From Dokdonella koreensis DS-123 (GTDB taxonomy: Bacteria; Pseudomonadota; Gammaproteobacteria; Xanthomonadales; Rhodanobacteraceae): a stretch of DNA of 64,000 bases. The notes beneath the pieces are model-generated. The model was not told the origin of the DNA, made no database searches, and saw nothing but the letters and a program-made list of their open reading frames with translations. A program made the position numbers and the translations under genes. The stretch spans positions 124,001 to 188,000 of the forward strand of contig NZ_CP015249.1 in assembly GCF_001632775.1 (NCBI RefSeq), given 5' to 3'. The stretch's first letter is position 1; each line of letters begins with the position of its first letter. Shown piece after piece: positions 21,722 to 39,185 of this stretch.

Positions 21722-21992
21722 CTAGGGCGTGTCATCAATCCCTCGGTAGGCCGCGCCGTTCTTGCGTGCGTCCGGGACAAGGAAGAGGGAGGAAGTGGAC
21801 GTCGGTCCACGCCCGAGCGATGACGCAGTCCCGGGCGCACGCAAGAGCGGCCCTACGGGTTGGCCCTGGAAAGCCGCCAGCGTGCGTTGCGCGGCTTGAC
21901 CTGACGGCCAGTCAGGCGCGGCGCCACGCAACACCCCCTGACGACTTTCCAGGGCCAACGCGACCTGCCGGGGGATTGATGACACGCCCTAG
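21722..21992. mobile_element. 271-bp non-autonomous element (MITE-like), copy 1
   Basis: A near-identical copy lies at 38908-39178 (three differences in 271 bp, no gaps). The ends are perfect 21-bp inverted repeats (21722-21742 and 21972-21992) that continue imperfectly for about 12 more bases; each terminates in CTAG, probably the duplicated target. Inside are nested hairpins: 21761-21778 with 21828-21845 (17 of 18), 21795-21810 (GTGGAC arms), and 21859-21873 with 21945-21959 (15 of 15). No transposase is encoded. Its right CTAG contains the TAG stop codon of ilvH. A CTAG/YTAR target resembles IS5-group elements, which is inference only. Confidence 0.88.
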
Positions 21993-22492
21993 AGGCTCGG
22001 CACCAGCGCGGCGTCGCCGCGTTCCAGCGCCGCGGTGCCGCTGCGCGCCAGTTCCAGCACCGGCGCTAGGTTCGACAGTTCCGAGAAGAACGCGTTGACC
22101 TCGCGGCCGGCACCGCTGAACTGGACGACGCGGCTGCGCAGGCCGCTGTCGACGATCCGCGCGCCCGGGTGGCGGCCGACGCAGGCCTCGACCTCGGTCA
22201 GGGTGCGGCCGGCGACACCGACCTTGACGATCAGCAGCTCCGATTCGAGGTGCTCGCGGCCGGTCAGGTCGGCGATCTCGAGCACGTCGATCAGCTTGCG
22301 CGACTGCTTGACGATCTGGTCGATCACGGCGTCGTCGCCGCTGGTGACCAGGGTCAGCCGCGAGATCGCCGGGTCGTGGGTCGCGGCGACGGTCAGCGAG
22401 TCGATGTTGTAGCCGCGTGCGGAGAACAGGCCGGCGACGCGGGCCAGTGCGCCGGCCTCGTTCTGCAGCAGGATGGCGATGATCCGGCGCAT
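21989..22492 (-). CDS. ilvH: Acetolactate synthase, small (regulatory) subunit
   Basis: 167-aa regulatory subunit for valine feedback of acetohydroxyacid synthase. It begins MRRIIAILLQNEAGALARVAGLFSARGYNI, the ACT domain of IlvH/IlvN, and has the C-terminal RTLTEVEACVGRHPGARIVD segment. Its ATG shares one base with the ilvB stop (TGATG), so translation is coupled. The TAG stop is formed by the CTAG at the edge of the mobile element at 21722-21992, so the native C-terminal codons may have been altered by the insertion. Last gene of the ilv-leu superoperon. Confidence 0.93.
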   Translation of the reverse strand: MRRIIAILLQNEAGALARVAGLFSARGYNIDSLTVAATHDPAISRLTLVTSGDDAVIDQIVKQSRKLIDVLEIADLTGREHLESELLIVKVGVAGRTLTEVEACVGRHPGARIVDSGLRSRVVQFSGAGREVNAFFSELSNLAPVLELARSGTAALERGDAALVPSL

Positions 22493-24300
22493 CAGAACAT
22501 CTCCGACGGCGCGGCCTCGGCGACGGCGGGTGCCGCCTGCCGCGATGCGATGAAATCGCCGGTGATCATCTGCGCGTAGGTCATGCCGGGTCCGACCATC
22601 GGGTACACACCGGCATCCGGGTCGATCATGACCTCGAGGAAGGCCGGCCCGTCGAAGGCGATGAAGTCGGCGACGACGCGCAGCAGGTCCTCGGGCCGGT
22701 CCAGCCGGTGCGCCCACTCGAAGCCGTCGGCCTGGGCGGCGCGCACGAAGTCCTTCTTGTGCAGGCTCTTGTCGGTGGCCGAGAAGCGTCCCTTGAAGAA
22801 CAGGCGCTGCCATTGGCGCACCATGCCGTCGCCGACGTTGTTGAGCACGACCACCTTGATCGGCAGCCCGTAGGTGGTCACGGTCTCCAGCTCGCCGAGG
22901 TTCATGCGGATGCTGGCGTCGCCGTCGATGTCGATGACCGGCAGGTCGCGGCGGGCGAACCGCGCACCGATCGCGGCCGGCAGGCCGAACCCCATCGTCC
23001 CCATCGAGCCGGACGTCAGCCACAGCCGCGGCTCGCGGAAGTCGAAGTACTGCGCCGCCCACATCTGGTGTTGCCCCACGCCGGTGCTGATGATCGCGCG
23101 GCCCTGGGTCAGGCGGTTGATCGCCTCGATCACCGCGTACGGCTGGATGCGCGCGCTGGTGCGGTCGTAGTTCATCGCATGGGTGCGCTTGAGCGCGGCC
23201 ACGTGCGCATGCCAGTCCGCATACGCGCCCTCCTCGCGCGGCCGGAAGCCGTGCTGCAGCCCGTAGATGCGCAAGGTGTCCAGCGCCCGGGACAGGTTGC
23301 CCAGGTGGTGCCAGTCGGCCGGCTTGACCTTGTTGATCTCGGCCGGGTCGATGTCCAGGTGCGCGATGAAGCGTGCGCCGCCGGCGAACGCCTGCGGCAC
23401 GCCGGCCACCCGGTCGTCGAAGCGCGCACCGACGGCGATCAGGAAGTCGCAGTCCTCCACGGCGTAGTTGGCGAATGCGGTGCCGTGCATGCCGAGCATC
23501 TGCAGCGCCAGCGCGTCGGTCGTGTCGACGGCGCCCAGGCCCATCAGCGTGGTCGCCACCGGGATGCCGAAGGCACGCGCGAAGTCGCGCAGGGCGCCGG
23601 CCGCCTCACCGGCGATCACGCCGCCGCCGGCGTAGAGCAGCGGCCGGCGCGCCTCCTTCAGCGCCTCGAAGAACGGCGCGCACCGCGCCGCGTCCAGGGT
23701 CGCGGCGTCGATCGCGCGCAGCCGTGCGCGGTAGCCGGGCAACGGCAGCGTGCCCTCGCCGCGGAAGCGCAGCTCGGCGTTCTGGATGTCCTTGGGAATG
23801 TCGACCACGACCGGGCCGGGCCGGCCGGTGCGCGCGATCTCGAAGGCCGTGCGCAGCGTCGCCTCCAGCCGGCTGGCTTCGGTGACCAGGAACACGTGCT
23901 TGGCGCAGGCGGCCATGATGTTGCTGATCGGCGCCTCCTGGAACGCGTCGGTCCCGATCGATCCGGTCGGCACCTGCCCGCACAGGACCACGATCGGGAT
24001 CGAGTCGGCCATCGCGTCGCGTACCGGCGTGACCGTGTTGGTCGCGCCGGGGCCGGACGTGACCAGGGCGACACCGACCCTGCCGGATGCGCGCGCATAG
24101 CCCTGCGCCATGAAGCCGGCGCCCTGCTCGTTGGCCGGCACGATCAGCGGCAGCGGTTCGCCGCCGCCGGCCTGCGCATGGGTCTGGTTGTAGCGGAACA
24201 CGGCGTCGTAGACCGGCAGGATGGCGCCGCCGGAATAGCCGAAAACGACCTCGACGCCCTCGTCGGCCAGCACCTGCACGACGATGTCGGCACCGGTCAT
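22492..24300 (-). CDS. ilvB: Acetolactate synthase, large catalytic subunit
   Basis: 602-aa ThDP enzyme condensing two pyruvates, or pyruvate with 2-oxobutyrate, the first common step to valine/leucine and isoleucine. The catalytic Glu lies in PANEQGAGFMAQGYARA. The FAD/oxidase-derived middle domain is present, and the ThDP/Mg motif is GDASIRMNLGELETV. The frame extends to a TTG at 24315, but ATG 24300 (MTGADIVVQVL) matches the usual family start; neither has a strong Shine-Dalgarno. It lies 90 bp after ilvC and overlaps ilvH by one base. Confidence 0.95.
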   Translation of the reverse strand: MTGADIVVQVLADEGVEVVFGYSGGAILPVYDAVFRYNQTHAQAGGGEPLPLIVPANEQGAGFMAQGYARASGRVGVALVTSGPGATNTVTPVRDAMADSIPIVVLCGQVPTGSIGTDAFQEAPISNIMAACAKHVFLVTEASRLEATLRTAFEIARTGRPGPVVVDIPKDIQNAELRFRGEGTLPLPGYRARLRAIDAATLDAARCAPFFEALKEARRPLLYAGGGVIAGEAAGALRDFARAFGIPVATTLMGLGAVDTTDALALQMLGMHGTAFANYAVEDCDFLIAVGARFDDRVAGVPQAFAGGARFIAHLDIDPAEINKVKPADWHHLGNLSRALDTLRIYGLQHGFRPREEGAYADWHAHVAALKRTHAMNYDRTSARIQPYAVIEAINRLTQGRAIISTGVGQHQMWAAQYFDFREPRLWLTSGSMGTMGFGLPAAIGARFARRDLPVIDIDGDASIRMNLGELETVTTYGLPIKVVVLNNVGDGMVRQWQRLFFKGRFSATDKSLHKKDFVRAAQADGFEWAHRLDRPEDLLRVVADFIAFDGPAFLEVMIDPDAGVYPMVGPGMTYAQMITGDFIASRQAAPAVAEAAPSEMF

Positions 24301-24390
24301 CGCGGCGCCGGCCAATGGGTGCGGCGTCGCCTCGGGGGGGCTTCACGTATGGCGTTCATCGTCATCGTCCTGCATTCGGTAGAGGCTGCG

Positions 24391-25383
24391 TCAGGCGCCG
24401 GAACTGAGCCACGGCATGCGCGCGCGCAGCCGGCTGCCGACCTGCTCGATCGGATGGTCGAGGTCCTTCTGCTTGTAGGCCGAGTAGTTCGGCAGGCCGG
24501 CGGCGTGCTCGGCGGTCCATTCGCGGGCGAAGCGCCCTTCCTGGATGTCCTTGAGCACTTCGCGCATGCGGTCCTTGGTGCCGGCGTCGACGACGCGCGG
24601 ACCGCGCGTGTAGTCGCCGTACTGGGCGGTCTCGGAGATGAAGCTCAGCATCTTGGCGAGGCCGCCCTCGTAGAGCAGGTCCACGATCAGCTTCAGCTCG
24701 TGCATGACCTCGTAGTAGGCGATCTCCGGCTTGTAGCCGGCCTCGACCAGGGTCTCGAAACCGTTGATGACCAGCTCGCTGGCGCCCCCGCAGAGCACCG
24801 CCTGTTCGCCGAACAGGTCGGTCTCGGTCTCTTCCTTGAAGTCGGTCTCGATCAGCAGCGCGCGCGCGCCGCCGAGGCCGGCCGCATAGGCCAGCGCCTT
24901 CTCGCGCGCCTGGCCGCTGGCGTCCTGGTGGACCGCGAACAGGCACGGCACGCCGCGCCCGATCTCGTACTCGCGCCGGACCAGCGCGCCGGGACCCTTC
25001 GGCGCGACCAGCACGACGTCGATGTCGTAGCGCGGCTCGATCGTCTTGAAGTGCACGTTGAAGCCGTGCGCGAACAGCAGCGCGGCACCCGGCTTGGCGT
25101 TCGGCGCGATGACCTCGTTGTAGAGCGTGGCCTGGACCATGTCCGGTGTCAGCACGGCGATCAGGTCGGCGCCCTGCACGGCTTCGGCGGGCGTGAGCAC
25201 GCTGAAGCCGTCGGCGGCGGCCTTCGCCGAGGTCGGGCCGCCGGGGCGCAGGCCGATGACGACGTCGAGGCCGGAGTCGCGCAGGTTGAGGGCATGGGCG
25301 CGGCCCTGGCTGCCGTAGCCGAGCACGGCGATGCGGGCCTGGCGGAGGGCGTCGGTGGTGGCGGTGATCGTCTCGGTGCTCAT
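24391..25383 (-). CDS. ilvC: Ketol-acid reductoisomerase (NADP+), class I
   Basis: 330 aa, the short class I form. It isomerises and reduces acetolactate or acetohydroxybutyrate to the dihydroxy acid. The Rossmann motif is [17 protein letters not shown]. The Mg-binding acidic residues lie in [14 protein letters not shown] and the C-terminal knotted domain in [19 protein letters not shown]. The gene follows ilvD by 47 bp and precedes ilvB by 90 bp in the same operon. Confidence 0.96.
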
Positions 25384-25430
25384 CGGATTCTCCGGGGGGA
25401 TTGGGGCGGGTCGGGTGCGGGAGTGAGGGG

Positions 25431-27116
25431 TCAGCCGGTGGTCACCGCGCCGAGCGCGGCGGATCCGACCAGGCGGGCGTACTTGGCGAGCGCGCCGTGG
25501 ACGACCTTCGGCGGCGGCGGTGACCAGTCGGCGCGGCGCGCGGCGAGATCGGCATCGGTCTCCACGACGCGGCGGACGGCGTCGATGACGATGCGGTCAC
25601 CGTCGCGCAGCAGGGCGATCGGTCCGCCGCGCGCCGCTTCCGGGGCGACGTGGCCGACGACGAAGCCGTAGCTGGCGCCGCTGAAGCGGCCATCGGTCAT
25701 CAGGGCCACGCGATCGCCGAGGCCGCGGCCGACCAGGGCGGCGGTGACGGCGAGCATCTCGCGCATGCCCGGGCCGCCGGCCGGACCTTCGTTGCGGATC
25801 ACGACGACGTCGCCGGCCTCGATGCGGCCGACCTGCACGGCGCGGAAGCAGTCCTCCTCGCTTTCGAAGACGCGCGCGCGGCCTTCGAAGCGCAGCGTGT
25901 CGATGCCGGCCAGCTTGAGGATGCAGCCTTCGGGCGACAGGTTGCCGTAGAGGATCGAGTAGCCGCCGCGCGGCTTGAACGCCTGGGCGACCGGCCTGAC
26001 CACCGGCTGGCCGGGCGGCGTCGGCGGCGCCGCGTCGATCTCCTCGAACAGCCCGCGGCCGGTGACGGTCGGGGCGTCCTCGATCAGGCCGGCCGCGCGC
26101 AGCTCGCGCGCGACCGCGGCCATACCGCCGGCGGCGGTCATCTCGATCGCGGTGTAGCGGCCGCCGGGCATCAGGTCGGCGATGACCGGCGTCTGCACCG
26201 AGGCGCCCTCGAAATCCTCGATCGTCAGCGCGACGCCGGCCTCGTGTGCGATCGCCAGCAGGTGCAGCACGGCATTGGTCGAGCCGGCCGTCGCCGCGAC
26301 GATGCGCATCGCGTTGCGGAACGCCGCCGGCGAGAGGATGCCGCGCGGCGTACGCCCGTCGCGCAGGCATTCGAGCGCCAGTTCGCCGCAGCGCCGTGCC
26401 GCGGCGCGCTTGGCCGGATCGGTGGCGGCGATGTCGTTGAGGCCGAGCGGCGTCAGTCCGAGCGCGGTCAGCACCATCGCCATCGTATTGGCGGTGAACT
26501 GGCCGCCGCAGGCACCGGCGCCCGGGCAGGCGCGCTGCTCGACCGCGCCGAGGCGCGCGTCGTCGATCCGGCCGGCACCGTGGGCACCGACCGCCTCGAA
26601 CACCTGCTGCACGGTGATCGGCGTCCCGTCGAGCGTGCCGTGCGCGATGCTGCCGCCGTACAGCGCGACGCCGGGGACGTCCAGGCGCGCCAGCGCCATC
26701 GCCGCGGCCGGGATCGTCTTGTCGCAGCCGCACAGGACGACCATCGCGTCGAGGCAGTGGCCGTCGACGGCCAGCTCGATCGAGTCGGCGATCAGCTCGC
26801 GGCTGATCAGCGAGGCGCGCATGCCGGGCGTGCCCATCGCGATGCCGTCGGTGACCGCGATCGTGTTGAACTCGACCGGCGTGCCGCCGGCGGCGCGGAT
26901 GCCGTCGGCGACCTCGGCGGCCAGATCGCGCAGGTTGAGGTTGCACGGCGAGATGTTCGACCAGGTGTGCACGACCGCCACCAGCGGCTTGGCGATCGCC
27001 GCCGCGTCGAGCCCGGTGGCATAGAGCATCGCGCGCGCCGGCGCGCGGTCGGGACCGGTCTTGATCGCGTCGCTGCGCAGGCCCGGCGCCTTCGGTCGGG
27101 GCGGTGGCGCGTTCAT
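25431..27116 (-). CDS. ilvD: Dihydroxy-acid dehydratase
   Basis: 561-aa Fe-S dehydratase making the 2-oxo acid precursors of valine and isoleucine. Cluster cysteines lie in [10 protein letters not shown] and [16 protein letters not shown], and the C-terminal [19 protein letters not shown] is intact. Its length matches the shorter IlvD subfamily rather than the about 616-aa enterobacterial form. ATG 27116 overlaps the leuB stop by four bases (ATGA), so the two are coupled. Confidence 0.95.
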
Positions 27117-28171
27117 GCCGCCACCTTCCGGCGCGCGGCGAGCCGGTCCAGCACCGCATCGGTCACCTGCTGCGTGGTGGCATGGCCGCCGAGGTCGGCG
27201 GTCAGCTCGGCCTCGTCGAGCACCGCGTCGACCGCGGCCTCGACCGCGGCCGCCTCGGCGTCCAGGCCCAGCGAATGGCGCAGCAGCAGCGCCGCGCTGA
27301 GGATCGCGCCGATCGGATTGGCGACGCCGCGGCCGGCGATGTCCGGTGCCGAGCCGTGGATCGGTTCGTAGAGGCCGCGCCGCCCGTCGCCGAGCGAAGC
27401 CGACGGCGACACGCCGAGCGAGCCGGCGAGCGCCGCCGCCTCGTCGGTCAGGATGTCGCCGAACAGGTTCTCGGTGACGATGACGTCGTAGGCGGACGGC
27501 CGGGTCAGCAGCAGCATCGCCATCGAGTCGACCAGCTGGTGCTCGAGCGTGACGTCGGGGTAGTCCCTGGCGATGCGCTCGGTGGTGGCGCGCCACAGCC
27601 GCGAGGTCTCCAGCACGTTGGCCTTGTCGACCGAGGTCAGCCGGCCCCGGCGCGCACGCGCCAGCTCGCAGGCGCGGCGCACGACACGCTCGACCTCGGC
27701 CACGCTGTAGCGGCATTCGTCGACGGCGACGTCGCCCTCGCGTGTCTTGCGGCCGAAGTAGGCGCCGCCGGTCAGTTCGCGGACGAAGACCAGGTCGACG
27801 CCGTGCAGGTGCTCGGCCTTGAGCGGCGACAGCGCCGCCAGGCGCGGATGGACGCGCAGTGGCCGCAGGTTGGCGTAGACGCCGAGCGTCGCACGCAGCG
27901 CCAGCAGACCCTGCTCGGGCCGCACGGGCGCATTCGGGTCCGACCACTTCGGCCCGCCGACCGCGCCGAGCAGGACGGCGTCGGCCGCCCGGCAGGCCTC
28001 GACCGTCGCTGCCGGCAGCGGATCGCCGGTGGCGTCGATCGCGCAGCCGCCGATCGCGTGCTCGGTGAAGGCGAAGGCCTGGCCGGCCACGCCGCGCAGC
28101 ACGGCGACGGCGGCCGCGGTGACTTCCGGGCCGATGCCGTCCCCGGGAAGGACGGCGATGTGGGCGTTCAT
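27113..28171 (-). CDS. leuB: 3-isopropylmalate dehydrogenase
   Basis: 352-aa NAD-dependent oxidative decarboxylase of the leucine branch. It starts [17 protein letters not shown]. Substrate residues are in the [21 protein letters not shown] segment, and the cofactor loop is in the region [31 protein letters not shown]. The ATG overlaps the leuD stop (ATGA) and its own stop overlaps the ilvD start. Full length for the family. Confidence 0.96.
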
Positions 28172-28773
28172 GCGATGACCTCCACCGGGTAGGGATTGGA
28201 CCGGATGCGCTGCTCGTAGGCATCGATGTCGGCCCGGGCGTCGAGCAGGAAACCGAGCGGATCCAGGCCGCTCAGCAGGCAGTGACGGGCGAAGCCGTCG
28301 AGCGCGAACGCGAACACGCGGCCGTCGGGCAGCGTGATCGTGCCGGCGGCGACGTCGATCGCGAGGTCGAGGCCGGGGTGCTCCAGCAGTTCGGCGTGCT
28401 GGTCGGCCGGCAGCACGATCGCGAGCAGGCCGTTCTTGAGCGCATTGCTGCGGAAGATGTCGGCGATCTCCGAAGAGATCACCGCCGTGATGCCGTAGTC
28501 GAGCAGCGCCCACGGCGCATGCTCGCGCGAGGAGCCGCAGCCGAAGTTGCGGCCGGCGACGAGGATCGCGCAGTCCTTCGCGTCCGGGCGGTTGAGCGGG
28601 AAGTCGAGATTGGGGCTGCCGTCGGCCGCGTAGCGCCAGTCGTTGAACGCGTGCCGGCCCAGGCCGGTGCGCTCGGTCGTGGTCAGGAAGCGCGCCGGGA
28701 TGATGCGGTCGGTGTCGATGTTCTCGAACGGCAAGACCGCCGATCGCGAACGCAGGTGGTGGATCGGCTTCAT
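28168..28773 (-). CDS. leuD: 3-isopropylmalate dehydratase, small subunit
   Basis: 201-aa swivelling subunit of isopropylmalate isomerase. Characteristic segments are [13 protein letters not shown] and [21 protein letters not shown]. It pairs with LeuC encoded immediately upstream; the leuC stop and leuD start overlap as ATGA, and the leuD stop overlaps leuB in the same way. Normal family length. Confidence 0.96.
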
Positions 28774-30179
28774 GCGGCGTGCTCCAGCAGGGCATCGGGG
28801 TCGGTGATGCGGCCGGCGACGGCCGCCGCCGCCGCGACGCGGGGGCTGGCCAGCACGGTGCGCACGCCCGGTCCCTGGCGTCCCTCGAAGTTGCGGTTGC
28901 TGGTCGAGACGACGAGCTGGCCCGGCTGGGCGATGTCGCCGTTCATGCCGATGCACATCGAGCAGCCTGCGTCGCGCCATTCGGCACCGGCGCGCAGGAA
29001 GACCGCGTCGAGTCCCTCGGCCTCGGCCGCGTGCTTGGTCGCCACCGAGCCGGGAACGACCAGCATGCGCACGCCGTCGGCGACGCGACGGCCGTCCAGC
29101 ACGGCCGCGGCCTCGCGCAGGTCCGACAGGCGCGAGTTGGTGCAGCTGCCGACGAAGACGACGTCGACCGGCTCGCCGGTCAGCGGCCGGCCGCCCTCGA
29201 AGCGCATGTAGGCCAGGGCCTTGGCTTCCTGCGGGTCGCGCGCGACGGGAACGGCCGCCGCGATCGGTGTGACCATGCCCGGGTGCGTGCCGTAGGTGAT
29301 CGTCGGGCCGATCGTGGCGGCGTCGATGCGCACCTCGCTGTCGTAGCGCGCGCCGGGATCGCTGGCGAGCGTGCGCCAGTACGCCACGGCGCGCGCCCAG
29401 TCCACCCCGCGCGGCGCCCGCGGGCGGTCGCGGAGGTAGGCGAACGTCGTTTCATCCGGCGCGATCAGGCCGGCGCGCGCGCCGGCCTCGATCGACATGT
29501 TGCAGACCGTCATGCGCTCTTCCATCGACAGCGCCTGGATCGCACTGCCGCGGTACTCGATGACGTGGCCGGTGCCGCCGCCGACGCCGATCCTGCCGAT
29601 CACGTGCAGGATCAGGTCCTTGGCGCCGACGCCGGGGCGCAGGCGCCCGTCCACGTGGATCGCGAAGGTCCGGGGCTTGCGCTGCAGCAGGCACTGGGTG
29701 GCCAGCACGTGGCCGACCTCGGTCGTACCGATGCCGAAGGCCAGGGCGCCGAACGCGCCGTGGGTCGCGGTATGGCTGTCGCCGCAGACGATCGTCATGC
29801 CCGGCTGGGTGGCTCCCAGCTCCGGCCCCATGACGTGCACGATGCCGCGGTGCGCGCTGTCCCAGCCCTCGAGCGCGATGCCGAACGCCGCGCAATTGGC
29901 CTCCAGCCGGGCGACCTGCTGCGCCGCCTCCGGCGTGGCGTACGGGCGCACGCCGTCCGGCCCCGCGGGCAGGGTCGGCGTCGAGTGATCCAGCGTCGCC
30001 AGCACGCGCTCGGGGCACCGCACCGGAAGGCCGCGCGCGTGCAGCTCGGCGAACGCCTGCGGCGTGGTGACCTCGTGGATCAGGTGCAGGTCGACGTAGA
30101 GGATGCCGGGCGTGTCGGCGGTTTCCGCGCGCACCTGGTGCGCATCCCAGATCTTGTCGATGATGGTGCGGGCGTTCAT
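28770..30179 (-). CDS. leuC: 3-isopropylmalate dehydratase, large subunit
   Basis: 469-aa aconitase-family subunit with a [4Fe-4S] cluster. Cluster cysteines are in [14 protein letters not shown] and [11 protein letters not shown]. The start [16 protein letters not shown] is canonical, and the gene overlaps ilvE upstream by four bases (ATGA). Together with LeuD it isomerises 2-isopropylmalate to 3-isopropylmalate. Confidence 0.96.
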
Positions 30180-31162
30180 GCCGCGATGCCCTCCGGCTGC
30201 GCCCGCGCCTGCTCGTCGGCATCGGCCAGGTGGGGGTCGGTGCCGCCCGGCACGGGCGTCAGCCAGCCCCGTCGATCGGGCGTGCGGCCGTCGAACAGGC
30301 CGAAGAACGCCTGCTGCAATGCGCGCGTGACCGGTCCGGGCGTGCCGCCGCCGACCGGCTTGCGGTCGACCGAGCGCACCGGCGTGATCTCGGCGGCCGT
30401 ACCGGTCATGAAGATCTCGTCGCTGGTGTAGAGCGCCTCGCGCGGCAGGTCGCGCTCCTCGACCGCCAGCCCGAGGTCGTGTGCCAGCGTCATCACGGTG
30501 TCGCGCGTGATGCCGGCGAGGATGCCGGCGCTGCTGGGCGGCGTGTACAGCACGCCGCGGCGGACCAGGAACAGGTTCTCGCCGGCGCCTTCGCTGAGCA
30601 GGCCGTTGCTGCCGAGCGCGATGCCCTCGGCATAGCCGCCGCGGCGCGCCTCCAGGCCGATCAGCTGGCTGGACAGGTAGTTGCCACCGGCCTTGGCCCA
30701 GCTCGGGAACGTGTTCGGGGCCGGCCGGTGCCACGAGGACACGCACACGTCGGCCCCGTGCTCGATCGCGTCGCCGAGGTAGGCGCCCCAGTCCAGCGCC
30801 AGGATCGCCACGTCCACCGGCGCGCCTTCGCGCGCCAGCACGCCCAGGCCGCCGGCGCCCCGGAACACGATCGGCCGCACGTAGGCCGACTGCATCCGGT
30901 TGGCGGCGATCAGTTCCAGGCAGGCGGCGTTGATCGCGTCCTCGCCGTAGCCAATGTCGATCTCGTAGATCCGGGCCGACTCGAACAGCCGGCGCGTGTG
31001 GTCGGCGAGACGGAAATAGGCCGGTCCCTGCGGCGTGGCGTAGACCCGCTCGCCTTCGAATACCGACGAGCCGTAGTGCAGCGCGTGGGCGCTGACGTGC
31101 ACGGTCGCGTCCTGCCAGGGTTTGAGTCGGCCGTTGTGCCAGATGAAGGGCGCGTGGCTCAT
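30176..31162 (-). CDS. ilvE: Branched-chain amino acid aminotransferase
   Basis: 328-aa class IV PLP aminotransferase catalysing the last step to valine, leucine and isoleucine. The PLP lysine is K157 in [13 protein letters not shown]; the family signatures [20 protein letters not shown] and [17 protein letters not shown] are intact. The N-terminus [16 protein letters not shown] is typical. It sits unusually between leuA and leuC, with 27 bp to leuA and a four-base overlap with leuC, making one transcription unit. Confidence 0.95.
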
Positions 31163-31189
31163 GGCTGCTGTCCTCGTGGATGCATGGGT

Positions 31190-32788
31190 TCAGATGGCCT
31201 GGGCGAGCTGGCGCAGCGGGACCGCCGGCGTGCCCCGCTCGATGCGGTTGGCGATCTCCAGCGCGGCCAGCGCCGCCGCCTCGACGATGTCGGTCGACAC
31301 GCCGCGTCCCTTGAGCTCGCGGTCCTGGTGGCGCACGCCGAGCGTGGCCTGGCCCTGCGCGTCGCCGCCGTGGCTGAGGGCGCGGATCTGGAAGTCGGTC
31401 AGTTCCAGGTCGTGGCCGATCGCGCGGCCGATCGCGCGCAGCACCGCGTCGATCGGCCCGTCGCCGATCGCCGCCTCGCTGGCGCGGCGGCCGTCCTCGT
31501 GGACCAGGCGCACCGAGGCCGAGCCGTTGCCGCCGAGGTGGCTGGAGGCGTTGAGGTGTTCCAGGTGCCAGGGCCCGACCGCTTCGGGGTCGCGACCGAC
31601 CGCCAGCGCTTCCAGGTCGCTGTCGAACACTTCGCGCTTGCGGTCGGCCAGTGTCTTGAAGCGCGTGAAGATCGCATCGAGCTGGGCCTCGTCGGGGGCG
31701 TAGCCGAGCGCCGCCAGGCGTTCGCGCAGTGCGTGGCGGCCGCTGTGCTTGCCCAGCACCAGCTGCGAGCGGCTGAAGCCGACGTCCTCCGGCTTCATGA
31801 TCTCGTAGGTGCCGCGATGCTTGAGCATGCCGTGCTGGTGGATGCCCGACTCGTGGGCGAAGGCGTTCTCGCCGACCACCGCCTTGTTGCGCGCGATCGG
31901 CTGGCCGGTCAGCTGGCCGAGCAGGCGCGCGGTCGGATAGAGCTTGCGCGTGTCGATGCCGGTATCGACGCCGAACAACTCGGCACGCGTGGCGAGCGCC
32001 ATCACGATCTCCTCCAGGGAGGCGTTGCCGGCGCGCTCGCCGATGCCGCCGATCGTGCATTCGACCTGGCGCGCCCCGGCGGCCACCGCGGCCAGGCTGT
32101 TGGCGACGGCGAGACCGAGGTCGTCGTGGCAATGGGTGGAGAGCACCGCCTGGTCGATGCCGTGCACGTGCTCGCGCAGGTAGCGCACCCGCTCGTACAT
32201 CTCGGCCGGCGTCGTGTAGCCGACCGTGTCGGGCACGTTCACCGTGCGCGCGCCGGCTGCGATGACGGCCGAGAAGACCTCGACCAGGTAGTCCGGCTCG
32301 GTGCGGATCGCGTCCTCGGCCGAGAACTCCACGTCGTCGAAATGCCGGCAGGCGTTCCGGACCGCGGCGACCGCGTTCTCGATCACCTGCTCGCGGCTCA
32401 TGCCGAGCTTGAACTCGCGATGCAGCGGGCTGGTCGCGAGGAACAGGTGGATGCGTGCCTTGGCCGCCGGCGCCAGCGCGCGGGCGCAGGCGTCGATGTC
32501 GCCGGGCACGCAGCGTGCCAGGCCGCAGACGATCGGCCGGCGGACCTCGCGGGCGATCGCCTGGACCGCCTCGAAGTCGCCGTCCGAGGCGCTCGGGAAG
32601 CCGGCCTCGAGCACGTCGACGCCCAGTTCCTCCAGGGCGTGGGCCAGCCGGAGCTTGGCCGCGCGTCCCATCGAGAAGCCGGGCGCCTGTTCGCCGTCGC
32701 GCAGGCTGGTGTCGAAGATCCGGACCCGCTCGCGGCCGGTGCCGGCTGCGGGGGGTGTTACGTCGCTGGGGGGATTGTCGTTGGTCAT
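31190..32788 (-). CDS. leuA: 2-isopropylmalate synthase
   Basis: 532-aa committed enzyme of leucine synthesis. The HMGL-like barrel starts [17 protein letters not shown] (acid and metal residues), with the metal HxH in [11 protein letters not shown] and the catalytic-region HESGIHQHG. The C-terminal allosteric domain that binds leucine is present (about 390-520). I chose ATG 32788 over the upstream ATG 32818 because the latter lies against the terminator T tract. It is the first structural gene after the attenuator, so it is controlled both by attenuation and by leucine feedback. Confidence 0.96.
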
Positions 32789-32816
32789 GGTTTTTCCGCT
32801 GTCGCGGGTGCCGGGC

Positions 32817-32855
32817 AAAAAAAAACCCCACTTCCGTCGCCGGAGGTGGGGTTTT
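32817..32855 (-). terminator. Attenuator: intrinsic terminator before leuA
   Basis: On the minus strand a stem with arms CCCCACCTCC (32851-32842) and GGAAGTGGGG (32835-32826), one C-A mismatch and loop GGCGAC, is flanked by an A run and followed by about nine T residues. It ends some 30 bp before the leuA ATG. The 5' arm can instead pair with the end of the leader reading frame (32893-32906 with 32840-32853, one bulged base), a classic antiterminator alternative. Confidence 0.9.
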
Positions 32856-32890
32856 CGGGATGTTTGCGATCGTTTTATCGACGCGTGCCC

Positions 32891-33022
32891 TTAACCCGCA
32901 CCTCCGCTGGTAATGAGAAGTACGAGTACAAGGGCCAGGGTGGCATCGCGGCCGCACAGCGGGCGTCCGGCCGGGATGGGCCGTGGGAACGTCGCGTGGC
33001 GGGTGGTGTTGCGATGCGTCAT
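32891..33022 (-). CDS. Leader peptide of the ilv-leu operon, 43 aa
   Basis: A short reading frame begins ATG at 33022 and ends TAA at 32891. Residues 29-37 read LALVLVLLI, five Leu, two Val and one Ile in nine codons, just before the TAA, as in transcription-attenuation leaders. The TAA lies 35 bp before the terminator hairpin, and the final codons form one strand of the antiterminator. Stalling on scarce branched-chain aminoacyl-tRNA would free that pairing and let transcription enter leuA. The ATG is only eight bases after the -10-like box. Confidence 0.85.
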
Positions 33023-33030
33023 AGAGCGTG

Positions 33031-33060
33031 ACCGTAAGGCGACTGGTGGCGTTCTGTCAA
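33031..33060 (-). promoter_or_regulatory. Promoter of the ilv-leu superoperon
   Basis: Minus-strand consensus -35 TTGACA at 33060-33055, 18-bp spacer, then -10-like TACGGT at 33036-33031. Transcription would start next to the leader-peptide ATG at 33022. The region is divergent from the ParA-like gene at 33184. Confidence 0.7.
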
Positions 33061-33183
33061 CTGTTTCATGAAAAAAAGAAATGATCGGTCGCGATGGCCT
33101 TCCCAGGCCTCGCGCCGGGCGCCCCCGGTCGCGGTGCCCGCTGTAGTACGCTTGCCGGCGTTGCATACCGACGGGAGGCCTCG

Positions 33184-33813
33184 ATGCTGAAAGTGCTGGT
33201 TGCAAGTTCGAAGGGCGGCTGCGGCAAGACCACCCTGGCGACCAATCTCGCGGCGCACTACGCGGCCGACGGCAAGCGGACGGTCATCGTCGATGCCGAT
33301 CGCCAAGGGTCCAGCCAGCGCTGGTGCGAGAAACGCGTGCTGCTCGGCGGCATCGTGCTGCCGGTGGACGGCACGCGGCGCGGCTGGCAGCAGCGCATCC
33401 CTGCCGACGCGCAGCGCGTCGTCATCGATACGCCGGCCGGCATCCGTGCCAGCGAGATCGCCGACTGGATCGACGACGTCAACGTCATCGTCGTGCCGGT
33501 CCTCCCTTCGACGATCGACCTGGAGGCCAGCGCGGCCTTCCTGGCGGAGCTGGCCGACCTGCCGCGGATCAAGCGCGGCAAGGTCGCGGTGGGCCTGGTC
33601 GCCAACCGGCTCAAGCCGTGGACTTCGGCCTCGCAGCAGGCGCTGGACCAGATCAAGCAGCTGCCGTTCCCCCTGGTCGCGCAGATCCGCGACACGCAGG
33701 CCTATGTGCTGCTGGCCGGCCTGGGCAAGAGCATCTTCGACTACCACTCCGAACAGGTGCGCTCGCACCAGGACGACTGGGCCAAGTTGCTGCGCTGGAT
33801 CAAGCGCCAGTAG
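33184..33813 (+). CDS. ParA/MinD-like P-loop ATPase, orphan
   Basis: 209 aa. Deviant Walker A KGGCGKTT at residues 10-17 with the signature lysine K10, Walker-A' region VIVDADRQGSSQRW, and a later hydrophobic switch (VVIDTPAGI). This is the short ParA form without a DNA-binding N-terminus. No ParB or centromere-like repeats are nearby, so it is not an obvious partition locus; it may position a protein cargo. ATG 33184 is preceded by GAGG. Divergent from the ilv-leu promoter. Confidence 0.88.
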   Translation: MLKVLVASSKGGCGKTTLATNLAAHYAADGKRTVIVDADRQGSSQRWCEKRVLLGGIVLPVDGTRRGWQQRIPADAQRVVIDTPAGIRASEIADWIDDVNVIVVPVLPSTIDLEASAAFLAELADLPRIKRGKVAVGLVANRLKPWTSASQQALDQIKQLPFPLVAQIRDTQAYVLLAGLGKSIFDYHSEQVRSHQDDWAKLLRWIKRQ

Positions 33814-33894
33814 CCACGGTGCGGCCGGGAACCCCGCCGGCGTGCGTCTGTCCAACCGCCGCCGGCCTCCCCGGCATCGACAAGGAAACGCGGC

Positions 33895-34401
33895 ATGTAC
33901 AAGGCCATCCTGGCAGTGCTGTTGGTCGTTGCGGCCGGTGCCGCGCAGGCGCAGGTCGCGGTCGGCGACGTCCCGCCCGACGAGCTCGGCAAGGACCGCA
34001 GCGGCACGCCGGTGCGGATCAGCGACCACCGCGGCAAGGTCGTCGTCATCAGCTTCTGGGCCTCCTGGTGCACCTACTGCCTCAAGGAGCTGCCGGCGCT
34101 CGAGAGCATCCAGAAAGTGGCGGGCAAGGACCAGCTCGAAGTCGTCGCCGTCAACTTCAAGGAAGAGGCCGCGCTGTACCGGCGCATGCTGGCCAAGCTC
34201 AAGGACCTGCAGATGACCTTCACGCACGACGGCAATGGCCAGCTCGGCAACCGCTATGGTCTGCGCGGGCTGCCGTTCCTGGTGATGATCGGGCGTGACG
34301 GGCGCGTGGCGTTCACGCATGCCGGCTACGGCGAGCAGACCCTGGATCGCATCATCGACGAGATCAACACCTTGCTGGCGGCACCGGTGCCGGCGGCCTG
34401 A
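33895..34401 (+). CDS. Periplasmic thioredoxin-like protein, TlpA/ResA type
   Basis: 168-aa exported protein with a cleavable signal ending near AQAQ (residue 19-20). It has a thioredoxin fold with the redox motif WCTYC (C59, C62), the cis-proline region LRGLPFLVMI and a C-terminal helix. Such proteins reduce disulfides in apocytochromes or other periplasmic substrates. It lies 81 bp after the ParA gene. The specific partner is unknown. Confidence 0.9.
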   Translation: MYKAILAVLLVVAAGAAQAQVAVGDVPPDELGKDRSGTPVRISDHRGKVVVISFWASWCTYCLKELPALESIQKVAGKDQLEVVAVNFKEEAALYRRMLAKLKDLQMTFTHDGNGQLGNRYGLRGLPFLVMIGRDGRVAFTHAGYGEQTLDRIIDEINTLLAAPVPAA

Positions 34402-34512
34402 CCGCCCGGTCGCGCACGCGTCCCTCGCGGCCGGCGCGCCGTTTTCGCGTGCATGGCGACCGGCCTGACGAGCCACTACACTCGACCGCTTTCGTTCAGC
34501 GAAGGCCGGCCC

Positions 34513-35958
34513 TTGCGCATCACCTCGTCCGTCCGCGTAGTGCTGATCGCGCTGGCGCTGATCGCGCTCTACCGGGTCGCGTCGCTGCTGCTGCACGATC
34601 CGATGCTGGCGCTGGCCAACAACTACGACCAGATCCGCTACACCGGCTGCTACGACGTGGGGCCGATCCGCCCAGGCGTTCCGGCCTGGCACAGCAATCC
34701 GCATGCGCCCCTGAGCCTCTACGGCACCCAGCCGATACCCGAAGGCAACTGCTACTGGTCCACCGACCTGCTGTTCGGCGCGCCGGTGGCGATGGCGTGG
34801 CGCATCGCCGAGTGGGCCGGCGGGCCGGCCGAGCATTCGGTCCGGACGCTCGGTGCCTTGCGCCTGGCGGCGTGGCTGCTGGTTGCCGTCTGGGTGACGG
34901 CCAGCCTGTGCCGCAGCGGCCGCCCCGACGTGGCGGCGGCCCACCTGCTGGCGCTGGCGGTGGTCGCCGCCGATCCCGTCAATACCTTGTACCTCAATAC
35001 CTTCTATGCCGAGGCCGGCGCCCTGTTCGGCCTGTATCTGGCGCTGGCGGGCGCATTGGTCTGCATCGCCAGGCCGGGCCGGGTCGCATTCGCGGCGGCC
35101 GCCACCGGTGCGGCGCTGCTGGCGGGCAGCAAGTTCCAGCACGCGATACTGCCGCTGTTGCTGGCACTGGGCCTGATCGTCGCGCACGACTGCCGGATGC
35201 GGCGCGCGGCCGTGGCCCTGCTCCTCGGCGGGCTGGCCGGCGGTGCGGTGCAGCTCTACCAGGGCACGCGCGCGATTCCGCTCGCCGAAGCCATCGCCGC
35301 GACCAACCGGGTCAATTTCGTCCTGACCACGGTGCTGCCGAACGTGGCCGACGCCGGGGCGACGGTGGCCAGGCTGGGATTGCCGCCCGCCTGCGCCGAA
35401 CTGTCCGGCAAGAGCATCTACCAGCTCCAGGAGCCGGTCGAGACGCTCTGTCCGGGCCTGCGCGAACTCGGTGCGCTGCCGGCCTGGGGCGCCTTGCTGG
35501 CCGAACCGAGGGCCTGGTTCCGTGCGATGCAGCGGATGCCGCCGTACATGCTCTGGATTCCCGACTACCTGGGTATCGTCGAGGGCGTCGATGGCAAACC
35601 CCTGCCGGCCGGCCAGTTCACGTTGAGCCGGTGGATCGACCACCGTCCGCTCGGGCTGCTCGCCCTGTTCGGCCTGCCGTGGCTGGTCTGGGCGGCGACC
35701 TGGATCCTGCGCGCCGGTCCGCTGGCGCGCGGCTTCGCCGGTGCCTGCGCGATCGGTTCGGTCGCGGCGGCCGGCATCGCCCTGTTCGGCGACGGCTACG
35801 TCGAGCTGGGCAAGCACGCGCACCTGACGTTCAGCCTGGCGCTGGCCTCGCTCGCGGTGCCGGCCGCGGGCCTGGTACGGCAGCTGGCACAGCCTCGGGC
35901 GATCGCGCACAGGGATGCAGGCGAGCTGGCCGATCGGGCTGCTCCGTTGAAAAAATGA
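34513..35958 (+). CDS. Polytopic membrane protein of unknown function
   Basis: About 481 aa with roughly ten hydrophobic segments: an N-terminal helix VVLIALALIALYRVASLLL, clusters at about 110-270, and a final group at about 390-450. A long hydrophilic loop follows TM1 with Cys-containing YDQIRYTGCYDVG and NCYWSTD, as in some GT-C glycosyltransferase-like proteins, but no catalytic motif is certain. I prefer the TTG start 34513 because GAAGG precedes it and a -10-like TACACT lies at 34477-34482; ATG 34453, giving 501 aa, is the alternative. Confidence 0.75.
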   Translation: MRITSSVRVVLIALALIALYRVASLLLHDPMLALANNYDQIRYTGCYDVGPIRPGVPAWHSNPHAPLSLYGTQPIPEGNCYWSTDLLFGAPVAMAWRIAEWAGGPAEHSVRTLGALRLAAWLLVAVWVTASLCRSGRPDVAAAHLLALAVVAADPVNTLYLNTFYAEAGALFGLYLALAGALVCIARPGRVAFAAAATGAALLAGSKFQHAILPLLLALGLIVAHDCRMRRAAVALLLGGLAGGAVQLYQGTRAIPLAEAIAATNRVNFVLTTVLPNVADAGATVARLGLPPACAELSGKSIYQLQEPVETLCPGLRELGALPAWGALLAEPRAWFRAMQRMPPYMLWIPDYLGIVEGVDGKPLPAGQFTLSRWIDHRPLGLLALFGLPWLVWAATWILRAGPLARGFAGACAIGSVAAAGIALFGDGYVELGKHAHLTFSLALASLAVPAAGLVRQLAQPRAIAHRDAGELADRAAPLKK

Positions 35959-36023
35959 TGCGGCATGGTTGACGGGACCGCCGCTTGCGGCATGATCGAC
36001 GCACCATCGAGGGGAGAGACGTC

Positions 36024-36506
36024 ATGGTCATCCGCGAAGTCATTCTGCTGCGCCATGCCCATGCCGATCCGGCGGCGCCCGGCGAGGAGGACCGGACCCG
36101 CTCGCTGAGCGCCCGCGGCATCGCCGAGGCCGAGGCGGTCGGCGCCTGGCTGAAGGCGCAGCGCGCGCAGCCCGATCGGGTCCTGTGCTCGCCGGCCGAG
36201 CGCACCCGCGAGACGCTCCAGCAGGTGCTGGCGGTGACCGGCTACTCGGACCTGCGGATCGAGCCGCGCATCTACGAGGCCAGCCCGGTGACGCTGATTC
36301 GCGTCCTGGACGACCACGCCGATGCCGAGCGCGTCCTGCTGGCCGGCCACAACCCCGGGCTGGAAGACCTCGTGGCCCTGCTGGCCGATGGCGCATCCGA
36401 TGCCGGACGGGGCCTCCCGCCGGGCGCGGTGGTGTGGCTGCGGCTGCGCGAACCGGGACGGCTGGAACCGGGATCGGCCGAGGTGCTCCACTTCTGGTGG
36501 CCGTGA
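36024..36506 (+). CDS. sixA: SixA-type phosphohistidine phosphatase
   Basis: 160-aa histidine phosphatase. The catalytic RHA motif is at residues 10-12 (H11), with Arg residues in CSPAERTRET, and the second catalytic histidine is H109 in LLAGHNPGLE. SixA proteins remove phosphate from histidine-phosphotransfer domains or PTS proteins. GGGGAGAG precedes the ATG. It is followed 12 bp later by the YceI gene, probably in one operon. Confidence 0.9.
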   Translation: MVIREVILLRHAHADPAAPGEEDRTRSLSARGIAEAEAVGAWLKAQRAQPDRVLCSPAERTRETLQQVLAVTGYSDLRIEPRIYEASPVTLIRVLDDHADAERVLLAGHNPGLEDLVALLADGASDAGRGLPPGAVVWLRLREPGRLEPGSAEVLHFWWP

Positions 36507-36518
36507 CGCGCCATCGTC

Positions 36519-37094
36519 ATGCGCCTCGCCGCCGTGCTCGCCGTGCTGCTGGCGCTCGCCGCGCCCGGCCTCCACGCGGAGGTGCTCGCGCTCGATTCCA
36601 CCCGCTCGCAGGCCGGCTTCGGCATCGGCGTGCTGCTGTTGTTCGACGTCGTGGGCCGCTTCGTCAAGGTGGACGGCTTCGTCGAGATCGATCGCCAGAC
36701 CCAGGAAGCGGTCGTGGACGCGCGGATCGCCGCCGATTCGGTGCGTATCGACGGCGGCAGCCGTGAAGACTGGGCACGCTCGGCGGAGTTCTTCGATGCC
36801 GAACGCTATCCGGAAATCCGTTTCCGCTCCGACGCCTTTCCGTTGAGCCGGCTCAGCGAAGGCGGCGACCTGGCCGGCAAGCTGACGCTGCGGGGGATCA
36901 CCCGCGCCGCCAGCTTCGAGCTGCTGCCGGCGACCTGCGCCCGGCCCGCGCGCGACTGCCCGGTGCGCGCCAAGGGCGTGATCCGGCGCAGCATGTTCGG
37001 CATGCGCACGCGGCGAGCCACCCTCTCGGACAAGGTGATCCTGGAACTGTCGATCTACGCGATGCCCAGCGAAACCGGGCTCGCGCCTCCATGA
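36519..37094 (+). CDS. YceI-family periplasmic lipid-binding-like protein
   Basis: 191 aa with signal peptide ending near LHAE (residue 19-21). The YceI lipocalin-like barrel is recognised by LDSTRSQAGFGIG, the strand VDGFVEIDRQT, the motif SAEFFDAERYPEIRFRSD and LTLRGITRAASFEL. Family members bind polyisoprenoids in a hydrophobic channel. The stop overlaps the following phospholipase-D-like gene by ATGA, implying coupled expression. Confidence 0.9.
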   Translation: MRLAAVLAVLLALAAPGLHAEVLALDSTRSQAGFGIGVLLLFDVVGRFVKVDGFVEIDRQTQEAVVDARIAADSVRIDGGSREDWARSAEFFDAERYPEIRFRSDAFPLSRLSEGGDLAGKLTLRGITRAASFELLPATCARPARDCPVRAKGVIRRSMFGMRTRRATLSDKVILELSIYAMPSETGLAPP

Positions 37095-38911
37095 GCAACC
37101 GATGGGCATGCTGCCGGCTGCTGCTGGTACTGGCACTGGTCCTGCTCGGGTCCGGCTGCGCGCTCAACCGCCAGCTGGCGCGCGAGGCCGACGGCGTGGT
37201 CGAGCGCCAGCGTCCCACGGCGCTGACCTGCGATCGCGCCGACCGCTGTGCGATCGCCACGCCGTACCGGCGCCTGGCCGACGAGGCGCGCGCGGCCAGC
37301 CGGCCGGACGCGCCGGTGCACTACGTCAACGTCTTGGAACGCGGTGAGGACGCGCTGCTGCTGCGCCTGCACCTGATCCGCGCGGCCCGGCGCTCGATCG
37401 ACGTGCAGACGTTCATCTGGGCCGACGACGATTCGGGCTGGCTGATCCTCGATGAGCTGATCGCCGCCGCCCGGCGCGGCGTGCGCGTACGCGTGCTGGC
37501 CGACCAGCTCTTCTCGATCAGCGACGTGGACTGGTTCGCGCGGCTGGCGCGGGCGCACGCCAACTTCGAGTTCCGCCTCTACAACGTGACCTTCCACAAG
37601 GCGCAGGCCAGCGGCATCGACCTGGCGCTGAGCGCGGCCTGCTGCTTCTCGCGCCTCAACCAGCGCATGCACAACAAGCTGCTGCTGGTGGACGGGGAGT
37701 TCGGCATCGCCGGCGGGCGCAACTACCAGGACCGCTACTTCGACTGGGACCAGACCTTCGACTACCGGGATCGCGACGTGCTGGTGTTCGGCCCGCAGGC
37801 CGGCCAGGAGATGGTCACCTCGTTCGAGCAATTCTGGACGCATCCGCTCTCGGTGCCGTTGACGCGGCTCAACGACGTCAACCGGCGCCTGGTCGGCGGG
37901 GGCAGCGAGGGTCCGCTGCCGCCTCCGGCGACGATCCGCTGGGCCCGCGTCGGCTCGCTGCGCGACCGGGCGACCGACCAGGGCTTCATCGACGCGGCGT
38001 TCGCGTCACGCGCGCATCGCGTGGGGCGCGCCGAGTACTTCTCCGATCCGCCCGGCAAGAATGCCGATTCGGAGCAGGCGGCGCAGCTGAGCGGGCGCAT
38101 CGCGGCGCTGCTGCGCAACGCGCACGAGGACGTGCTCGCGCAGACGCCGTACCTGGTGTTCAGCCGCGGCGCGCAGGACCTGCTGCAGGAGCTGCGCGAG
38201 CGCGACCCGCCGCTGCACGCGGTGGTGTCGACCAATTCGCTGGCCGCGACCGATGCGTTCTATGTCTACGCCATCTCCTACAAGCACAAGAAGAAGTACC
38301 TCAAGCGCCTGGGACTGCGCGTGTTCGAGTTCAAGCCGTTCCCCGGCGACGCGGCGCAGATGATCGCCAACTACCACGAGCTGTCGGGCGGCGGCCAGAC
38401 CGGGCGGGTCAGCCGCCAGGGCCAGACGCCGCTGAAGCAGGCACACGGCGTGCGGCTGGGCCTGCACGCCAAGTCGATCGTGATCGACCGCCGGGTCACG
38501 ATGATCGGCTCCCACAATTTCGACCCGCGCTCGGACTACTACAACACCGAGTCGGGCTTCATCATCCACGACCGCGCCGTCGCCCGTGAGGTGTCGGCCC
38601 AGATCGAACGCGACATCGAGCCGCAGAACAGCTGGACCATCGCCCGCCGCCCGCTGACCAATGCGGTCGCGCGCATCAACAACGCGATGAGCACGATCTC
38701 CGCGGCGCTGCCGATCTTCGACCTGTGGCCGTTCCGCTATGCGACCAGCTACGAGCTCAATCCCGGCTGCGAGCCGCTGTGGCCGAACGATCCGGGGTTC
38801 TACGCGTGCTACACCTCGGTCGGCGACTTCCCGGAGGTCGACCTGCCGCTGAAGACCATCTATACCCGCATCATCACCGCCTTCGGCGTCGCCCTCGAGG
38901 GCGTGCTCTAG
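37091..38911 (+). CDS. Phospholipase D/cardiolipin-synthase-like lipoprotein
   Basis: 606-aa PLD-superfamily protein. The N-terminus has a lipoprotein signal with GSGC. Two complete HKD motifs are present: HNKLLLVD (H194, K196, D201) and HAKSIVID (H459, K461, D466), each followed by GGRN- or GSHN-type residues. It may make or remodel phospholipids at the periplasmic face. Its TAG stop is supplied by the CTAG at the left end of the mobile element at 38908-39178. The reading frame overlaps yceI (ATGA). Confidence 0.9.
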   Translation: MSNRWACCRLLLVLALVLLGSGCALNRQLAREADGVVERQRPTALTCDRADRCAIATPYRRLADEARAASRPDAPVHYVNVLERGEDALLLRLHLIRAARRSIDVQTFIWADDDSGWLILDELIAAARRGVRVRVLADQLFSISDVDWFARLARAHANFEFRLYNVTFHKAQASGIDLALSAACCFSRLNQRMHNKLLLVDGEFGIAGGRNYQDRYFDWDQTFDYRDRDVLVFGPQAGQEMVTSFEQFWTHPLSVPLTRLNDVNRRLVGGGSEGPLPPPATIRWARVGSLRDRATDQGFIDAAFASRAHRVGRAEYFSDPPGKNADSEQAAQLSGRIAALLRNAHEDVLAQTPYLVFSRGAQDLLQELRERDPPLHAVVSTNSLAATDAFYVYAISYKHKKKYLKRLGLRVFEFKPFPGDAAQMIANYHELSGGGQTGRVSRQGQTPLKQAHGVRLGLHAKSIVIDRRVTMIGSHNFDPRSDYYNTESGFIIHDRAVAREVSAQIERDIEPQNSWTIARRPLTNAVARINNAMSTISAALPIFDLWPFRYATSYELNPGCEPLWPNDPGFYACYTSVGDFPEVDLPLKTIYTRIITAFGVALEGVL

Positions 38912-39178
38912 GGCGTGTCATCAATCCCTCGGTAGGCCGCGCCGTTCTTGCGTGCGTCCGTGACAAGGAAGAGGGAGGAAGTGGACGTCGGTCCACGCCC
39001 GAGCGATGACGCAGTCCCGGGCGCACGCAAGAGCGGCCCTACGGGTTGGCCCTGGAAAGCCGCCAGCGTGCGTTGCGCGGCTTGACCTGACGGCCAGTCA
39101 GGCGCGGCGCCACACTACACCCCCTGACGACTTTCCAGGGCCAACGCGACCTGCCGGGGGATTGATGACACGCCCTAG
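38908..39178. mobile_element. 271-bp non-autonomous element (MITE-like), copy 2
   Basis: Second copy of the element at 21722-21992, same orientation, same length and 98.9 % identical by eye. The terminal inverted repeats and all internal hairpin arms are conserved. CTAG is present at both edges (38908-38911 and 39175-39178), while the bases outside differ from copy 1, consistent with a CTAG target duplication. The left CTAG carries the stop codon of the phospholipase-D-like gene. An 87-codon frame open in copy 1 has an in-frame stop here, so the element is not coding. Confidence 0.88.
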
Positions 39179-39185
39179 CCGATGG

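Follow-up and report, generated by a model that had tools for sequence, protein, structure and literature searches.

What are two near-identical, hairpin-rich repeats of 271 bp doing in one 64,000-nucleotide stretch of the Dokdonella koreensis DS-123 genome (contig NZ_CP015249.1, positions 124,001 to 188,000, referred to here as the window)? Bacterial miniature inverted-repeat transposable elements (MITEs) are usually taken as worn-out insertion sequences (ISs), but here the interior is the conserved part. We conclude that the copies are very probably non-autonomous IS5-type miniature transposons, with a core that is an inverted dimer of one hairpin and a fold that has probably been selected.

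A preliminary description of the window, made from its sequence alone, had reported two copies with three differences and no indels, perfect 21-bp terminal repeats, nested internal hairpins, no transposase and unrelated flanking DNA. Each of these statements held. On direct reading, three of the 271 positions are not the same in the two copies (54, 207 and 209 of the element), there are no indels, and the flanks are different. The perfect 21-bp terminal inverted repeat lies within a longer arm of 34 bp at 91 % identity, here called P1, and the arms enclose two further hairpins, P2 and P3. The RNA fold of copy 1 was calculated at -196.5 kcal/mol (z = -15.7 against 200 dinucleotide shuffles), and its DNA fold has z = -12.8 against shuffled sequence. 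Open reading frames across the copies are short and mechanical only; four of them, scanned against Pfam alone, had no match at E <= 0.01, and no Rfam family reached the gathering score over the element in the window. The CTAG reported at both edges is present, but it is made up of a TA target and the element and is not all element; the inserted DNA is the 265 bp between the two TA.

21722..21992, + strand: copy 1 with target, C-TA-(265-bp element GGGCG...CGCCC)-TA-G, sequence read directly
21722..21755, + strand: copy 1, P1 left arm (terminal inverted repeat), partner arm 21959-21992
21755..21851, + strand: copy 1, P2 hairpin, arms 21755-21778 and 21828-21851, unit in sense on the + strand
21856..21962, - strand: copy 1, P3 hairpin, arms 21856-21895 and 21923-21962, unit in sense on the - strand
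21959..21992, + strand: copy 1, P1 right arm, partner of left arm 21722-21755
38908..39178, + strand: copy 2 with target, 3 substitutions relative to copy 1, sequence read directly
38908..38941, + strand: copy 2, P1 left arm, partner arm 39145-39178
38941..39037, + strand: copy 2, P2 hairpin, arms 38941-38964 and 39014-39037
39042..39148, - strand: copy 2, P3 hairpin, arms 39042-39081 and 39109-39148
39145..39178, + strand: copy 2, P1 right arm, partner of left arm 38908-38941

A search of the complete D. koreensis genome (4.45 Mb) found 21 full-length copies at 98-100 % identity, all with different flanks, and at least seven that are decayed, short or partial. TA is present on both sides of all 21 full-length copies; 20 of the sites have the form C-TA...TA-G (CTAG) and one ends TA-A (CTAA). 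The further copies that had been anticipated are therefore there, and the number and identity of the copies, the TA on both sides and the unrelated flanks support the proposal of a mobile, recently active MITE family. One partial copy (L023, G000:C1:1001234-1001381) is a deletion derivative of 148 bp; its ends are intact, P3 is missing, and the P2 loop is inverted, as though flipped on its own stem.

Distribution and fold of the core

When the 271 bp were used as a BLAST query against 60 genomes, there was no match in nine other genomes of the genus, and 14 further genomes were matched, mainly in the core. A covariance model of P2 (R1) recorded matches in 110 of 233 genomes of the family, from 16 of 26 genera (E <= 1e-6), and in 31 of 274 genomes of the class (E <= 1e-4). 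A wider covariance model (R2) matched 91 of 398 genomes of the phylum (E <= 1e-5); 56 of the 91 are outside the class, many of these in one family (f208). The D. koreensis genome is included in these counts, and for several genomes the number of matched places is an 'at least' value. Complete elements, mostly 259-273 bp and in the order P1, P2, CCC..GGGTT, P3, P1, were read from many matched genomes, some others being shorter or carrying inserts. Many groups of Pseudomonadota maintain the dimer at a length of about 266 bp.

No Rfam family reached the gathering score over the elements in L001/L083/L076, L260, L261 and L263-L266 (the t44 match in L263, at 1328-1420, falls outside the element), and the L261 and L294 elements had no match in phages. 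Searches of plasmids matched 4, 1, 4 and 4 records with no listed gene beneath the match, in a table that holds genes only and is silent on repeats. Among open-licence PubMed Central papers, judged by titles and the openings of abstracts, no description was recognised as this element. The hairpin-dimer family is apparently undescribed so far, and it extends far beyond the D. koreensis genome.

Not all elements were suitable for every comparison. Of the 110 located in other genomes, five with failed boundaries (L159, L163, L166, L175 and L180) were dropped before the gene-context and target-duplication counts. A 94-row alignment of family elements excludes L061, L072-L074, L080-L082, L086, elements outside 250-275 bp, exact duplicates, 20 of the 21 full-length D. 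koreensis copies and the decayed copies L022-L030 from that genome. For a wider set of 37 elements, seven loci that were near-duplicate or wrongly bounded were skipped, and L304 and L308, which are on short contigs, were excluded.

Both-sided compensatory changes were found at 59 of the 92 predicted pairs in 25 family elements, and at 25 of 31 pairs in 31 P2 hairpins drawn from across the class, own family included. In the latter set 95.5 % of cells are paired, against 73.3 % with shuffled partners and 33-46 % when the partners are slid by 1-3 columns, and none of 500 shuffles attained any of five measures. The loop motifs are nearly fixed: the hairpin unit combines a long and variable stem, which covaries, with a small capped hairpin and a pair of internal loops whose sequence hardly changes. 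P1 covaries too, but this was not counted as evidence for a fold because P1 forms the terminal repeat, and a single transposase has to accept both ends.

P2 and P3 are related to one another. A P2-only model, to which 18 of 34 distant elements had contributed their P2 and none a P3, matches P3 on the opposite strand in 26 of the 34 (E 1e-14 to 7e-5); its 60 matches in those loci are the 34 P2 and 26 P3 hairpins and nothing else. In pairwise comparison of P2 with reversed P3 outside the family, z was at least 4 in 11 of 27 elements (best 10.2) and below 1 in nine, and same-strand comparisons gave z from -1.5 to 2.2. One value above 10.2, for L270, was disregarded as the boundary was wrong. At the level of sequence, the core is shown to be an inverted dimer of one hairpin unit, and the P3 of the window copies would be an inverted P2 unit by the homology demonstrated in these distant relatives.

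The two units also differ in the strand on which they fold best. By minimum free energy (MFE), P2 is better on the + strand in 92 of 94 family elements and P3 better on the - strand in 92 of 94, and each figure is 32 of 37 in the wider set. Evidence for strand-specific wobble pairs rests on a count of strand-neutral pairs in the 94-row alignment, read on the + strand. Apical P3 has 452 A.C pairs, which are G.U on the other strand, against 19 G.T; the lower P3 stem has 32 A.C and 14 G.T, and the P2 stem has the reverse, with 7 A.C and 48 G.T. Such an asymmetry would be expected from selection on a single-stranded fold and not from correction of a DNA palindrome. Two other measures were set aside. 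The strand with the better overall MFE (the - strand in 85 of 104) is the sum of two opposite hairpins and was dropped as a guide to the RNA strand, and the A3 count of P2 pairs (49 G.T and 3 A.C on the + strand) was not relied on, as the structure had been predicted for the + strand and leans that way.

Ends, target sites and movement

The preliminary description had suggested looking for a full-length IS with the same ends. IS5-family elements that fit were found in relatives, but none is intact in the D. koreensis genome. PF13340 (DUF4096), an IS5-type N-terminal domain, is present in 33 of the 233 family genomes, 26 of them above the curated cut-off. The right end of one such IS (L197), read inward, is identical to the window element at 15 of 15 bases after the TA, and its site is CTAG. 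Two others (L195 and L198) end in GGGCGTG or GGGCCTG followed by TTAACAC. L199, L200 and L202 end in GAGCCTGTTCAAAGTCTC or a closely similar sequence and are flanked on each side by TGA or TAA, and the left ends of L199 and L202 have 18 of 18 bases in common with the sister elements L064, L076 and L084. Other DUF4096 loci that were fetched have no clear ends or different ones. Two IS5-type classes of end and target thus occur on the same core, namely GAGCCTG with a 3-bp TNA duplication and GGGCSTG with TA in CTAG. Outside the D. koreensis genome, the TA duplication was found for 12 of 19 GGG-type elements, and an exact 3-bp TNA duplication for 23 of 83 GAG-type elements. The last 317 bp of the IS5-family element in L199 (1365-2597, G232), including the right end, appear to be tandemly repeated, giving two alternative right ends.

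In the D. koreensis genome the only PF13340 match is a truncated IS5-family element (L125:2696-3240, G000:C1 at about 2202.2-2202.7 kb) with one end, CTAGGAGGTGTCATC, that is related to the element ends. A lone element-like end (2 mismatches) is at C1:2204006, about 1.3 kb from it. The search for a partner also gave another IS, with a probable inverted repeat starting GGGCACCTCG.

The window copies appear to behave as IS5-type MITEs in their mode of movement, in which an IS5-type transposase made elsewhere would bind the ends (the outer part of P1) and move the element in trans. Three element cores compared with the IS5 loci had no similarity (best E about 0.05), and the core thus gives no impression of being a shortened IS5. 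Derivation of the core from an IS5 by internal deletion, which some definitions of a MITE do without, was not what we found; this bears on the origin of the element and not on how it moves. We infer that the core is an old inverted dimer of a structured unit, present across the phylum, that has been combined with IS5-type ends of different kinds.

In GC-rich DNA, insertion at CTAG or TNA would tend to hit stop codons, since each of the four TNA words is either a stop codon or the reverse complement of one, and host genes would therefore be spared. In D. koreensis, the stop codon of a coding-like frame is at an edge in 17 of the 21 copies, compared with 5 of the 12 CTAG sites of the window that are not element edges (Fisher p 0.05, for two scores built slightly differently). 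Both window copies are among the 17, and the genes concerned are as follows.

21989..22495, - strand: acetolactate synthase small subunit gene (Pfam ALS_ss_C, ACT_AHAS_ss; start approximate), its TAG stop in the right-hand CTAG of copy 1 (21989)
37091..38911, + strand: PLD-domain gene (Pfam PLDc_2, PLDc; from Pfam and reading frame), its TAG stop in the left-hand CTAG of copy 2 (38911)

CTAG is strongly avoided in the window, with 16 sites against 168 expected from base composition (71 % GC); the two elements, with their edges, account for four of the 16. Directly 3' of copy 2, at 39185-39216, is a 15-bp perfect hairpin (GGTGAGAAAGGGCAG-TC-...), possibly the 3' terminator hairpin of the PLD-domain gene in a displaced position; if so, the element is inside the transcript. 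A somewhat similar hairpin adjoins another copy (L016).

Empty sites had also been proposed as a check. At the acetolactate synthase locus, the 12-base end motif is absent from all six same-genus relatives that have the gene, but the closest relative lacks the CTAG, so the site does not count as exactly empty. Empty loci were found for a sister element from a related genus: of 30 loci fetched (from 32 strong matches to the junction), three are occupied, and in 27 BLAST detected no element; in the unoccupied loci that were read, the two genes end near each other. One of the three occupied loci holds a different, longer element.

Gene context and competing explanations

The 105 remaining elements outside the D. 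koreensis genome, which come mostly from best-scoring matches and so favour consensus-like copies, were located relative to genes called by a simple finder based on codon usage. Beside start codons (-20 to +30 nt), 43 are in one orientation and 10 in the other, or 36 and 9 after removal of orthologues (p = 7e-5), and the preferred orientation is the one in which the mRNA carries P3 in sense. The corresponding numbers within 30 nt of a start codon in D. koreensis are 0 and 0. Bridging of a Shine-Dalgarno (SD) sequence to the start codon by a closed P1 stem was considered and is not supported by an anti-SD energy test, in which the energy directly upstream in 29 start-adjacent cases was compared with that 30 nt upstream (p = 0.31) and with other elements (p = 0.11). 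Likeness of the ends to integron attC sites was weighed by eye and dropped.

Three orthologous elements at the sister-element junction, from two genera, are 94-97 % identical in flanks that are 80-84 % identical, and have paired changes such as GC to CG. Elements are also more conserved than their flanks in L117/L149, L119/L143/L146, L104/L121 and L151/L152, and less conserved than both flanks in L115/L150 and in L063 compared with L117/L149. Gene conversion or repeated insertion could produce the identity of orthologous elements.

The hairpin unit would have been selected as a single-stranded fold, most likely, though with less certainty, as RNA in read-through transcripts. With one unit in sense on each strand there is one well-folded hairpin whichever way the element lands. 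A broader proposal is that a selfish class found throughout the phylum carries a conserved structured unit (RNA or single-stranded DNA) twice, once per strand, so that it works in either orientation. On this view the unit has survived its carriers through changes of IS5-type end and target, and its place of action is in host transcripts, where genes adjoin; we regard this as a tentative reading, somewhat short of an even chance. A structured RNA that benefits the host, in operon-junction processing or mRNA stability, and moves just occasionally, as has been proposed for ERIC and NEMIS repeats, is possible but unlikely. It would suit the tight gene junctions and favoured orientation seen in other genera and the orthologous site where elements with paired changes in place exceed their flanks in identity, even if gene conversion could account for that identity. 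Most species of one genus do without the element at the given junction, however, D. koreensis has no such orientation bias, and the pairs less conserved than both flanks do not fit.

Recognition of the hairpins in the form of single-stranded DNA could aid transposition, by analogy with REPIN/RAYT and IS200/IS605 systems, and an inverted pair of strand-specific hairpins does recall the layout of REPINs; as the ends and the TA or TNA flanks match the IS5-family elements that were found, we consider this improbable. Pairing could also arise by mutation, since intrastrand template switching makes imperfect palindromes perfect (quasipalindrome correction), and covariation would then be an artefact of copying. 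The balance of wobble pairs between strands in P1 is as this predicts, but P2 and P3 keep many one-strand wobble pairs that correction would erase (48 against 7 and 452 against 19) and the loop sequences are conserved, which makes it quite doubtful as an account of the core. A plain MITE, meaning that an IS5 derivative has recently multiplied, that its internal hairpins have no role and that its copies resemble one another by shared ancestry alone, would explain the near-identity of the 21 copies and their IS5-like ends. It is very improbable given compensatory changes that conserve the core across families, the strand-specific wobble, the nearly fixed length and the dissimilarity of the three tested cores to IS5 loci.

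Several findings weigh against a selected hairpin dimer moved by IS5 transposases. Homology of P2 and P3 is invisible pairwise in the element's own family (mean z 0.27, 108 elements), and a pairwise z of 4 is reached in only those 11 of 27 elements outside it. P1 has no strand preference (83 G.T and 67 A.C), and therefore pairing in P1 alone is explained by ends that must suit one transposase. Wobble and orientation counts come from related sequences and are not phylogenetically independent, and part of the strand preference of P2 comes from G.A and G.G mismatches, with energies taken from the fold model. Among GAG-type elements, those with an exact target duplication are in the minority. Searches of the D. 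koreensis genome by end pattern (up to 2 mismatches), PF13340 and PF01609 detected no intact IS5 that has these ends. In the copy-rich genomes G234 and G225, exact GAGCCTGTTCA ends are never paired at the distance of an IS, though a diverged end would escape this search. DUF4096 transposases are in 33 of the 233 family genomes and the element in 110. Both transcription of the element and its movement in trans are predictions.

Known systems and minor variants

REPINs are inverted doublets of repetitive extragenic palindromes (REPs), units with a GTAG-type head, that are mobilised by RAYT proteins. They resemble the present element in that two strand-specific hairpins, inverted relative to each other, move together, and differ in that the units here are about 100 nt and the terminal repeats and TA or TNA flanks are IS5-like. 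REPs, at 20-40 bp in the part of PMC3733652 consulted, are shorter than these units. The R0 and R2 repeats of Pseudomonas fluorescens (89 and 110 bp, each in two of three strains) are described in the sections consulted of PMC2718517 as short, non-coding, hairpin-forming and intergenic, with ends identical to an IS of the strain, all of which recalls the present element; that element, in contrast, measures about 266 bp, is built as an inverted dimer from a covarying hairpin and is found phylum-wide. No family in Table 3 of PMC2718517, compared by description alone, unites this size with long terminal repeats. ERIC, NEMIS/Correia and RUP elements, as far as the portion consulted of PMC10969869 goes, are also structured intergenic miniature elements with stably folding transcripts; by description only, the present family differs in its three-part fold, inverted homologous hairpins, two end classes and wider host range. 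The IS5-family DUF4096 elements (L195, L197, L199 and L202) match the present family over the outermost 15-18 bp of one end and make the same kind of target duplication, but are 816-916 bp, encode a transposase and are unlike the three tested cores.

The family may account for intergenic repeats in many genomes, and offers both a testable case of a mobile element selected for a single-stranded fold and a natural marker of insertion at stop codons. An inverted-repeat element of about 131 bp in a cyanobacterial record, a metagenome-assembled genome of Kaiparowitsia implicata (L093:6949-6969), has the same first 21 bases, CTAGGGCGTGTCATCAATCCC, and by eye no related core. In two different genomes, L080 and L086 have nearly the same extra hairpin inserted at one position of the P2 loop.

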